Assembly (NCBI RefSeq): GCF_024345375.1
Contig: NZ_JAGQAZ010000002.1
Location: forward strand, 310,001-374,000
From: Cyanobium sp. WAJ14-Wanaka
GTDB taxonomy: Bacteria; Cyanobacteriota; Cyanobacteriia; PCC-6307; Cyanobiaceae
DNA length: 64,000 nucleotides
Reading direction: 5' to 3'
In this document: one piece after another, positions 42,643-45,423 of the stretch
Position numbering within the stretch: position 1 is the stretch's first letter
Layout: each line of letters begins with the position of its first letter
Translations under genes and position numbers: made by a program
Notes under the pieces: model-generated
What the model was told of the DNA's origin: nothing
Database searches by the model: none
The model's input: only the letters and a program-made list of their open reading frames with translations

Positions 42643-43650
42643 TTATTGCTGGCTGCCAGGGTCAGATTGGCGGGAGCCGGCCAGTAAAAAGCCATCGCGG
42701 AAGGCATCGCCCCCGTCGGTGCCCCGCTTCAGGGCTGCCTCCACATCCAGCACCTGGCCCAGGAGTTGGAGAAAAAGCTTGGCTGGCTTGGCTCGAATTT
42801 GCTTGCGCATCACGTAGATGCGTTTGGGGTTGCCGATGCCTGCTGCCTTGGCAATTACGGCCACGTCCTGTTCCCCGGCCTTTTCCAGCAGGCTCACCCA
42901 GAGCCAGCCTCGGATTTGGCTCGATAGGGCAGCCACGATTCGCAGGGCAGGTTCATTGGCCTCCAGCAGGGCATCCACCAGGGCAATGGCCTTGGCCGGT
43001 TGGCCAGCCAGCAGGGCATCGCCCACCGCCAGACTGTTGGTGGCTTGGCTGCCGATTAGGGCTGCTACCGCTTCTGCTTTGATGCTTTTGCCATTGGCAT
43101 AGAGCGAGAGTTTTTCCAGCTCGCTTGCTAGGCGGGCGCTATCGCTGCCGATTGCCTCGGAAAGGGCTTCAGCGGCTTCTGGCTCGATTGATAGGCCAAG
43201 CTCCCTGGCCGTGCGTTGCACCAACTCCACCTGGCCGGCCCCATCCCAAATGGCCGGCAATGGGAAGGATTTTTCGAAAGCTTCCCCAGACTTAATCAGT
43301 TTTTGCAAGCTTTTGGTGGTGCGCAACCGGGCATCGGGCTTGCCGGGATTGACCAAAACCAGGTGGCATTGCTCGGCCACGAGCTCCAAATTTGCCTCCC
43401 ACTGCTCGGCCAGTTCTGTCGGACATTGGTTGCAAAAGGGGCTGCGCTGCAGCACCACCACCCGGGCACCTCTGCCAAAGGGGGGCGTGCGGACTTCACC
43501 CAGGGCCTGGGCCGCCTGGCCGGCGTCGTTGCCATCGAGGCGACTGAGGTTGATGCTGCTCCAGGCCGGATCCACCAGCTGGGCGATCAGGCCATCGACG
43601 GCCCTCTGCCGGGCGGCTTCATCGTCGCCCCAGTAGAGGTGAATCGGCAT
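42643..43650 (-). CDS. holA: DNA polymerase III delta subunit
   Basis: Clamp-loader subunit that opens the sliding clamp. It is 335 residues, beginning MPIHLYWGDDEAARQRAVDGL, with RTPPFGRGARVVVLQRSP and the C-terminal collar region RQIRAKPAKLFLQLLGQVLDVEAALKRGTDG. These match the divergent cyanobacterial HolA. It lies 11 bases after the end of the Phd-PIN gene and 30 bases before lysC, all on one strand. Confidence 0.92.
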   Translation of the reverse strand: MPIHLYWGDDEAARQRAVDGLIAQLVDPAWSSINLSRLDGNDAGQAAQALGEVRTPPFGRGARVVVLQRSPFCNQCPTELAEQWEANLELVAEQCHLVLVNPGKPDARLRTTKSLQKLIKSGEAFEKSFPLPAIWDGAGQVELVQRTARELGLSIEPEAAEALSEAIGSDSARLASELEKLSLYANGKSIKAEAVAALIGSQATNSLAVGDALLAGQPAKAIALVDALLEANEPALRIVAALSSQIRGWLWVSLLEKAGEQDVAVIAKAAGIGNPKRIYVMRKQIRAKPAKLFLQLLGQVLDVEAALKRGTDGGDAFRDGFLLAGSRQSDPGSQQ

Positions 43651-43661
43651 GGGCTTGGGCC

Positions 43662-44447
43662 TCAGATCCGCAGGGCGCTCAGCACCGGGTGCTGGCCAGT
43701 GTGGGCCAGGGCGGGGTGATCGGTCACCAGCACGGCCGCACCGCTTTGGATGGCCGTGGCCAGCTCGATGGCGCCGATTTCATCGAGCTGTGGTTCCTGG
43801 CGGCGCAGACGAACGGCGGCCGCAGCCATGGCCGCATCAGGACTGATCAGTTGCCAGTGGCGACCATCGGCAAAGGCCTGGCTGTAGCGCTGGACCAGGG
43901 CTTCATCGCCGCAGGCCAGGGGACCTTCCAGCACGCGCATCAGGCTGACCGTGCTCAACACCCCCAGCCAATAGCCCTGGGCGATCCCTTCGATTAGGGG
44001 CCCGAGATATTTGCCAGTGCCCTTGGCATCACAGATGTAGGCCACTAGGGCACTGCCATCGAGGGCCACCTTCGAGCCGCGACGCAGCAGGTGGGGTGCA
44101 AAGGCCTGGTCCCGTTGCACGGACTGCACATAGGCCGGGGTTGCGGGTACGGGCCGGGCGGGACGTGGTGAATCGCGGTTCCAGCAGTGACGACCGCTGC
44201 CCTGCAGGCCCAAGAGTGATTGGATCTGCCGTTGACGACGGATCGGATCCGCCGGCGGTTGATCGGCGAGGGGTACCAGGGCGGCAACGGGTTTGTGATG
44301 TCTTTTGATCAATATCCGTTCCCCGCCTGCGGCGCGGTCAAGCAGCTCCGGTAGGCGACGTCGTGCGGCCTCCACACCGACACTGTCAGCCATTTCAAAG
44401 GCTGAGCTTGGTTGGCACTTGGGCTGGGGCTGGGGAGTCGGATTCAT
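43662..44447 (-). CDS. Phd/YefM antitoxin domain fused to a PIN domain with altered active site
   Basis: A 261-residue single protein joining two parts normally encoded by separate toxin-antitoxin genes. Residues about 19-62 form a Phd/YefM DNA-binding domain (VGVEAARRRLPELLDRAAGGERILIKRHHKPVAALVPL). A basic, Pro/Arg-rich linker runs to about 125. Residues 126-258 are a PIN nuclease fold with D130 in VALDGSALVAY, STVSLMRVLEGPL and IELATAIQSGAAVLVTDHPAL. The usual Glu in the third-strand motif is Arg171, and the Asp expected just before AIxLATA is Gly225, although E174, D222 and E223 are near. The nuclease may be dead or reshaped. Another start is the ATG at 44393. TGTACA palindromes lie upstream. 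Confidence 0.88.
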   Translation of the reverse strand: MNPTPQPQPKCQPSSAFEMADSVGVEAARRRLPELLDRAAGGERILIKRHHKPVAALVPLADQPPADPIRRQRQIQSLLGLQGSGRHCWNRDSPRPARPVPATPAYVQSVQRDQAFAPHLLRRGSKVALDGSALVAYICDAKGTGKYLGPLIEGIAQGYWLGVLSTVSLMRVLEGPLACGDEALVQRYSQAFADGRHWQLISPDAAMAAAAVRLRRQEPQLDEIGAIELATAIQSGAAVLVTDHPALAHTGQHPVLSALRI

Positions 44448-44578: not shown

Positions 44579-44591
44579 CCTATGGAAATTA

Positions 44592-44634
44592 TGTACAGGC
44601 TGTACAGCTTATGTAAGGCCTACAGGATGTACAG
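44592..44634. promoter_or_regulatory. Probable operator: three TGTACAG boxes plus a TGTA-N5-TACA palindrome
   Basis: TGTACAG occurs at 44592, 44601 and 44628, and TGTAAGGCCTACA, a near-perfect palindrome, at 44612-44624. TGTACA is the established core of YefM-family antitoxin operators. The cluster lies between the divergent Phd-PIN gene, which carries a YefM-like domain, and cobH. Whether it controls one or both genes is inference. The first TGTACAG lies 145 bases from the Phd-PIN start, while the last is 16 bases from the TTG of cobH. Confidence 0.65.
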
Positions 44635-44649
44635 AATTGGTAAACAGCT

Positions 44650-45423
44650 TTGAAGTGGCTAGGGCCGTTGTCAGTCCACCGTCTGCCCGATCAATTTTCT
44701 GATCAGTTGCCCGATCAGTTACCTGATCCTTCACCGTCACCCCAGGCAGTGGTACCCCAGGCTTTCGACCATCCGATTTTTAGTGAAAGCATCGCCTTGA
44801 TCCGCTCAGCTTTGGCCCAGGAGCCGGTGGATCTGCTTTCTCCGCTTTCCCCATTGGAAAGTGATGTGCTGCTGCGATTGATCCATAGCAGTGGCGACCT
44901 CAGCCTGGCGAATGATCTCCAGTTTTCCCCTGGGGCCTGCGAAGCCGGAGCGGCGGCCCTTTCAGCCGGCGCAGTGATCCTCACCGACACGGCCATGGCG
45001 GCGGCGGCGGTGGCTCCAATGGCACGGCGCACCTTCGCTAATCGGGTGGCCAGCGTGCTCGATTGGGCCCCTGCCCAACCCCCAGCCGGCAGCACCAGAA
45101 CGGCTGCGGGGATGGCGCTGGCCCTGGCGGATCTAGGTCAGGTTCGATTAGGCGGCACTGGCGTTGTTGTGTTGATTGGCAGTGCTCCCACTGCCTTGGA
45201 GCGACTGCTGGAGTTGGTGGCAGCTGGGGCCTGTCCGTCGCCGGCCCTGGTGGTGGGCATGCCCGTGGGGTTTGTGGGGGTGGAACAGAGCAAGCGTCAC
45301 CTGGGCGCCAGTGGCCTAGTGCACCTGGGGCTCGGGGGCTCCAAGGGCGGAGCCGGATTGGTGGCTGCTGCCTGTAATGCCCTGCTGCGCCACGGGTTTT
45401 TGGCGGCGGCAGAGCAGGCCTAA
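44650..45423 (+). CDS. cobH: Precorrin-8X / cobalt-precorrin-8 methylmutase
   Basis: Moves a methyl group to convert (cobalt-)precorrin-8X to hydrogenobyrinic or cobyrinic acid in corrinoid synthesis. The catalytic core begins about residue 40 with HPIFSESIALIRSAL and includes GAVILTDTAMAAAAV and LVVGMPVGFVGVEQSKRHL, typical of CobH/CbiC. The start is uncertain. TTG 44650 gives 257 residues with a DQLP-repeat N-terminus coded by a 12-base DNA repeat, while GTG 44749 would give 224 residues, closer to the family. TGTACA boxes lie just upstream. Confidence 0.88.
   Translation: MKWLGPLSVHRLPDQFSDQLPDQLPDPSPSPQAVVPQAFDHPIFSESIALIRSALAQEPVDLLSPLSPLESDVLLRLIHSSGDLSLANDLQFSPGACEAGAAALSAGAVILTDTAMAAAAVAPMARRTFANRVASVLDWAPAQPPAGSTRTAAGMALALADLGQVRLGGTGVVVLIGSAPTALERLLELVAAGACPSPALVVGMPVGFVGVEQSKRHLGASGLVHLGLGGSKGGAGLVAAACNALLRHGFLAAAEQA
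44689..44728. repeat. 12-base tandem repeat GATCAGTTGCCC-like
   Basis: Just over three copies of a 12-base unit: GATCAATTTTCT, GATCAGTTGCCC, GATCAGTTACCT, GATC. They either encode the DQFS-DQLP-DQLP run near the start of cobH, or, if cobH starts at 44749, form a regulatory array of evenly spaced GATC sites. Confidence 0.85.

Follow-up and report, generated by a model that had tools for sequence, protein, structure and literature searches.

Toxin-antitoxin modules of the VapBC type are encoded by two adjacent genes. The antitoxin supplies a DNA-binding domain and, at its C-terminus, a neutralising segment with an Arg or Lys; the toxin is a PIN protein with four acidic residues (D-E-D-D), and a palindromic operator lies upstream. 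The antitoxin can belong to the Phd/YefM type, as in Mtb VapB46. In S. flexneri VapBC, Arg64 of the antitoxin binds Glu42 and Asp98 of the toxin; in this complex and in FitAB the antitoxin Arg plugs the acidic site, and both form a higher-order DNA-binding assembly (PMC3384007). The YefM-YoeB and Axe-Txe systems have pairs of TGTACA hexamers that overlap the promoter, and YefM and Axe bind these cores with their centres 12 bp apart (PMC7730913). EzeT and Slr1999, a HicA-HicB fusion, each combine a toxin with its antitoxin in a single protein (PMC4963859).

The window analyzed here, that is, the whole stretch of 64,000 nucleotides from Cyanobium sp. WAJ14-Wanaka, contains a gene that combines features of these systems (Table 1). 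The order of its parts and the palindrome upstream are those of VapBC, and where relatives at this locus are unfused, they form ordinary VapBC pairs. It differs from VapBC in being one polypeptide, in having lost two of the canonical acids, and in having two new acids one helical turn away. FitAB and S. flexneri VapBC, by comparison, consist of separate chains with a non-Phd antitoxin fold (FitA is a ribbon-helix-helix protein) and intact canonical acids. The paired TGTACA hexamers resemble those of YefM-YoeB and Axe-Txe, but here their centres are 9 bp apart and the partner is a PIN domain, whereas the partner there is RelE-like. EzeT has an active zeta-like toxin domain, in contrast to the degenerate toxin site found here; no fused homolog of Slr1999 was reported elsewhere, whereas the present fusion is a family-wide clade. 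A literature search of partial coverage found no published description of a fused Phd-PIN family.

Table 1. Positions in the window of the fused gene, its parts and its surroundings; residues are numbered along the fused protein
Feature	Position	Strand	Remarks
Fused Phd/YefM antitoxin-PIN gene	43662..44447	-	Single uninterrupted ORF, 261 aa
Phd/YefM DNA-binding/dimerisation domain	44262..44387	-	Residues 21-62; Pfam PF02604 and NCBIfam TIGR01552
Toxin-neutralising motif LLGLQGSGRHCW	44181..44216	-	Residues 78-89; R86 is the likely active-site-plugging residue
Linker, sequence relaxed	44088..44180	-	Residues 90-120; from dN/dS; antitoxin stop and toxin start fall here in split relatives
Degenerate PIN domain	43674..44087	-	Residues 121-258; Pfam PIN and profile match
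D130, first catalytic Asp, kept	44058..44060	-	D/E in 27/27 fused
R171, catalytic Glu lost	43935..43937	-	E in 13/13 unfused, 1/27 fused
E174, acid gained 3 residues past the lost Glu	43926..43928	-	Acidic in 24/27 fused, 0/13 unfused
G225, third catalytic Asp lost	43773..43775	-	D in 13/13 unfused, 0/27 fused
E228, acid gained 3 residues past the lost Asp	43764..43766	-	Acidic in 27/27 fused, 0/13 unfused
D243-H244, fourth acid position	43716..43721	-	Asp moved by one
Putative operator TGTACAGGCTGTACA (TGTACA-N3-TGTACA)	44592..44606	.	Two hexamers, centres 9 bp apart; sole exact match in the window
Second, degenerate operator copy CCTACAGGATGTACA	44619..44633	.	Two mismatches
Promoter-like -35/-10 pair CTTACA-18-CATAAT	44588..44617	-	Spacer overlaps the operator; consensus match only
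holA (DNA polymerase III delta)	42643..43650	-	Pfam PF06144; starts 11 bp past the fused gene
cobH (precorrin-8X methylmutase)	44650..45423	+	Pfam PF02570; divergent, shares the intergenic operator region

An earlier note on this DNA had proposed that a single protein carries both domains, and this holds: the frame is uninterrupted and Pfam detects the two domains in it. Both marks of a Phd/YefM antitoxin are present, namely a domain above the curated cut-off and a TGTACA-core palindrome upstream. The PF02604 match has an E-value of 1.8e-7 (31.3 bits against a curated cut-off of 29.8), and TIGR01552, the NCBIfam model of the Phd family, scores 24.6 bits against 20.8. The Pfam PIN match, at residues 128-243, is below its cut-off (E 0.004), while a profile built from the unfused PIN proteins matches the VapC 7by2 (E 1.4e-9). 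Among 23 fused relatives, Pfam found PhdYefM in all 23 and PIN in 14. The gene is present once in the host genome (2.14 Mb, 7 contigs).

We surveyed 201 and then 400 sampled Cyanobiaceae genomes. Other full-length Phd-PIN fusions, for which the note had suggested a search, occur uninterrupted in 45 of the 400, with identities of 36-73%. These 45 intact copies rule out a sequencing error or a hidden frameshift joining two genes, and the gene in the window itself has no frameshift. Three genomes (G181, G127, and G192) have the two adjacent genes of a VapBC module at this locus instead of a fused frame, and three others (G005, G155, and G126) have frameshifted or truncated copies. Sampled genomes from the other families of the class gave separate PIN or separate Phd matches only, and the viral contigs searched held no relatives of the fused gene. 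Further Phd-type antitoxins, 34-50% identical to the fused Phd domain, are encoded in the same genomes (G175:C7:237295, G195:C1:1456488, and others).

The surroundings are conserved. At every locus examined, cobH is divergent upstream and holA lies downstream, with mutS and lysC farther out where the stored stretch reaches that far. The start of holA overlaps the stop codon of the fused gene in some relatives, and holA is probably in the same operon. In many genomes that lack the fused gene, cobH is directly beside holA. Short C-terminal remnants of the fused gene stand directly before holA in G195, G081, and G171 (15 residues in G171), which indicates that the gene has been lost repeatedly. 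In another genome without the fused gene, G062, a different PIN gene (of the LLLDTHALLWWL type) and an adjacent Phd match fill the space between cobH and holA (L102, C1 ~2644500-2646000), so this space may be a place of repeated insertion of toxin-antitoxin modules.

The Phd/YefM and PIN pair fused once. A maximum-likelihood tree, with ten PIN proteins from other cyanobacteria as the outgroup, placed the 27 fused proteins in one clade (support 100/100) with the split forms just outside it. In the split copies, an antitoxin of about 80 aa is followed by the PIN protein; in G127 and G192 the antitoxin stop and the toxin start overlap as TGATG, and in G181 a short gap separates the two genes. The PIN proteins of the three split copies and of the outgroup have all four acids (D-E-D-D) intact.

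The active site was compared in an alignment of the 27 fused proteins with these 13 unfused ones, in which the four acids are invariant. The note had read the site as D130 kept, with Arg171 in place of the middle Glu and Gly225 in place of the third Asp, and the alignment to the unfused relatives bears this out. The second and third acids of the D-E-D-D set are lost, position 171 is Arg in 17 of the 27 fused proteins, and most of them place the fourth Asp at 243 or 244. An intact canonical site was seen in unfused relatives only. A scan of the PIN domain for switches of charge class found acid gains at positions 174 and 228 and nowhere else, each at i+3 from a lost acid. As for the substitute acids suggested earlier, E174 is conserved in the fused family apart from L013, L017, and L028, but D222 and E223 are not, and E228 is a further candidate that had not been named. 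An AlphaFold model built from two sequences was too poor (pLDDT 37) for the clustering of acids to be measured.

In the PIN fold, both helices start at the edge of the active site and run in the same direction. If each helix carried its acid one turn further along, the pair would therefore still face each other, but deeper. In our reading, the two displaced residues correspond to Glu42 and Asp98 of S. flexneri VapC. R86, in the motif GSGRxCW, is likely the equivalent of Arg64, and by analogy with Arg64 of VapB and Arg68 of FitAB (PMC3384007) it likely plugs the PIN active site. GSGRxCW would thus be the neutralising segment expected of a VapBC antitoxin; position 86 is Arg or Lys in 23 of the 27 fused proteins and in two of the three split copies. 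The outgroup PIN genes (L073-L079) are preceded by unrelated antitoxins that end in LEGLGKExW, similar to the LxGSGRxCW of the Phd-type antitoxins. Judged by these sequences, the type of neutralising motif appears to be tied to the PIN subfamily and not to the DNA-binding domain.

Both domains of the fused protein are under purifying selection. Among close pairs, dN/dS (Nei-Gojobori) was 0-0.26 for the Phd domain and mostly 0.1-0.5 for the PIN domain. The linker is relaxed, with values mostly above 0.4 and often near 1. The low values of the PIN domain mean that its scaffold is still used.

The operator is conserved as well. Nearly all relatives, whether fused or split, have the core palindrome or a near form of it upstream; among the relatives' loci examined, it was not seen at L012 and L017. 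No paired operator was present upstream of holA in the inspected genomes without the fused gene. One promoter-like pair was found where 0.2 were expected. The box of LexA in cyanobacteria has a spacing of 4, and an SOS box was ruled out here because the GTAC spacing is 5.

We consider it probable that the product of this single fusion of a VapBC-type module, with its canonical nuclease site gone, has been maintained as a DNA-binding protein that probably regulates its own expression. The toxin residues have been lost, selection persists, and the DNA-binding site of the pair is still upstream; for these reasons the toxin-antitoxin system looks to have been turned into a DNA-binding regulator. 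In Cyanobiaceae, a bicistronic module of Phd/YefM antitoxin and PIN RNase that occupied the cobH-holA interval fused once into one frame, and the canonical metal-binding acids were lost after the fusion. The resulting protein would now be non-toxic and DNA-binding. Its Phd part would dimerise and bind the two TGTACA hexamers at the promoter of the fused gene, and would thereby repress this gene and probably the downstream holA too. The former neutralising peptide may latch onto a PIN scaffold that would be inactive, either within the same chain or swapped in a dimer, which would give a permanently neutralised, stable complex. Further chromosomal binding sites were probably gained in several lineages.

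In the main rival to this regulator, the PIN domain would have stayed a nuclease by remodelling its site. E171 and D225 would have moved one helical turn to E174 and E228, which would bind metal together with D130 and D243 (or D244); the R86 segment would inhibit the protein itself, and either a signal or cleavage of the linker by a protease would release it. In favour of this, 174 and 228 are the sole acid gains in the PIN domain, each placed exactly i+3 from a lost catalytic acid, and they correspond to the two positions that the antitoxin's neutralising Arg touches in the S. flexneri complex (PMC3384007). The Arg or Lys at position 86 and the purifying selection on the PIN domain also fit, and self-contained toxin-antitoxin polypeptides are known (EzeT, as cited in PMC4963859). 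Against it, the acid at 174 is lost in three members, the Arg that most members have at 171 would place a positive charge beside the site, and several members have lost the neutralising Arg, a loss that an active nuclease would make dangerous. A shift of ~5 Angstrom, moreover, is rarely tolerated in a two-metal site. On balance we regard an active, shifted site as unlikely. The earlier note had left the choice between a non-toxic DNA-binding regulator and a nuclease using other acids; of the two, the regulator is better supported by the sequences, through the single clade, the loss of the site, the purifying selection, the YefM-type operator, and the dispersed copies of the palindrome.

Less probable still is that the fused gene has been kept mainly as a cis-element or leader cistron for holA, with its promoter/operator and translational coupling setting holA expression and the protein mattering little. 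The distance to holA (~11 bp here, an overlap with the stop codon in some relatives) is in keeping with this, as are the three genomes that lost the gene and retain a C-terminal remnant directly before holA. However, the dN/dS well below 1 in both domains means that the protein sequence matters, and in many genomes cobH and holA are neighbours with no such gene between them. Finally, that the gene is a decaying remnant of a selfish toxin-antitoxin module with no present function agrees with the frameshifted and truncated copies and the short remnants, but is very improbable in view of the 45 intact copies, the selection on both domains, and the conserved operator, and the dN/dS values have already largely refuted it.

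This one locus presents an ordered series, from an intact VapBC pair through a single fusion to the loss of the canonical toxin site under continued selection, after which the gene was lost repeatedly. It has long been asked whether toxin-antitoxin systems on chromosomes can turn into ordinary regulators, and the question is directly testable on fused and unfused orthologs within one family. For the evolution of PIN domains, the concerted displacement of two catalytic acids to i+3 is a natural experiment of an unusual kind.

The presence of the fused gene is associated with dispersed copies of its palindrome. Within the genus, YGTACANNNTGTACR occurs 5-22 times per genome with an intact gene and 0-1 times in five genomes without it (G171 included). 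Three genomes with decayed genes have 10, 3, and 5 copies, the 10 being those of G195, whose gene is reduced to a remnant. A strict 21-mer palindrome was present in 34 of the 400 genomes; 28 of these are among the 51 that have the locus, and 6 are among the 349 that lack it (Fisher p 2e-23). In genus g6, the 14 genomes with an intact gene have 1-12 sites and the 11 genomes without it have none; genus g31 follows the same trend, and genus g10 has no difference. These three genus comparisons and the strict-palindrome counts include the fused gene's own operator.

The sites are mostly intergenic (37 of 49 and 46 of 50, versus 15-17% non-coding DNA). Some of them recur at the same place in different species: ahead of thiC, between ndk and speA, and beside bchM and lepA (gene names recognised from the protein sequence); in the two g6 genomes without the gene where the thiC upstream region was readable, no site was seen. 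The core of the palindrome is conserved, and its flanking arms pair weakly.

Three other origins of the sites were rejected. They are not operators of other Phd antitoxins, because no homolog of the fused Phd domain lies beside them and the number of Phd genes does not track them. REP elements of the Y1/RAYT type do not agree with the distribution of Y1 genes, which are absent from G143 (22 sites), G158 (16), and G132 (12). RNA hairpins are not indicated either, as the arms pair little above shuffled sequences and at few positions.

An extended form of the preferred reading is that the pair was domesticated by fusion into a protein that binds its own operator and ~4-20 dispersed intergenic TGTACA-N3-TGTACA sites, some of them shared between species, with the toxin half as a scaffold in which the former antitoxin arginine locks an acid pair displaced by one helical turn. 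This extended form is plausible, and we hold it tentatively. Several observations make binding to the dispersed sites a matter of proposal. The association between gene and sites is confounded by relatedness, and the g6 genomes with the gene resemble one clade (ThiC identity 96-100% versus 91-93%). The strict palindrome is present in four genomes in which the gene was not detected (G082, G218, G257, and G309), and both the sites that G195 keeps beside a mere gene remnant and the lack of a difference in genus g10 also count against it. Many of the genus g1 sites are located between convergent genes, a placement that does not suit promoter control. The window's own genome has five sites only, and those other than the operator are by an apparent AbrB-Doc pair and around a Phd-like gene, a Uma2 gene, and a sugar nucleotidyltransferase gene.

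Across several Cyanobiaceae, the scattered intergenic palindrome is ~23-41 bp long with an invariant TGTACA-N3-TGTACA core (L122-L161, L162-L201), and its outer arms in genus g1 are CTCTCCTG...CAGGAGAG. In four genomes (L134, L141, L149, and L157), it is found inside the variable N-terminal coding part of an apparent ftsY.
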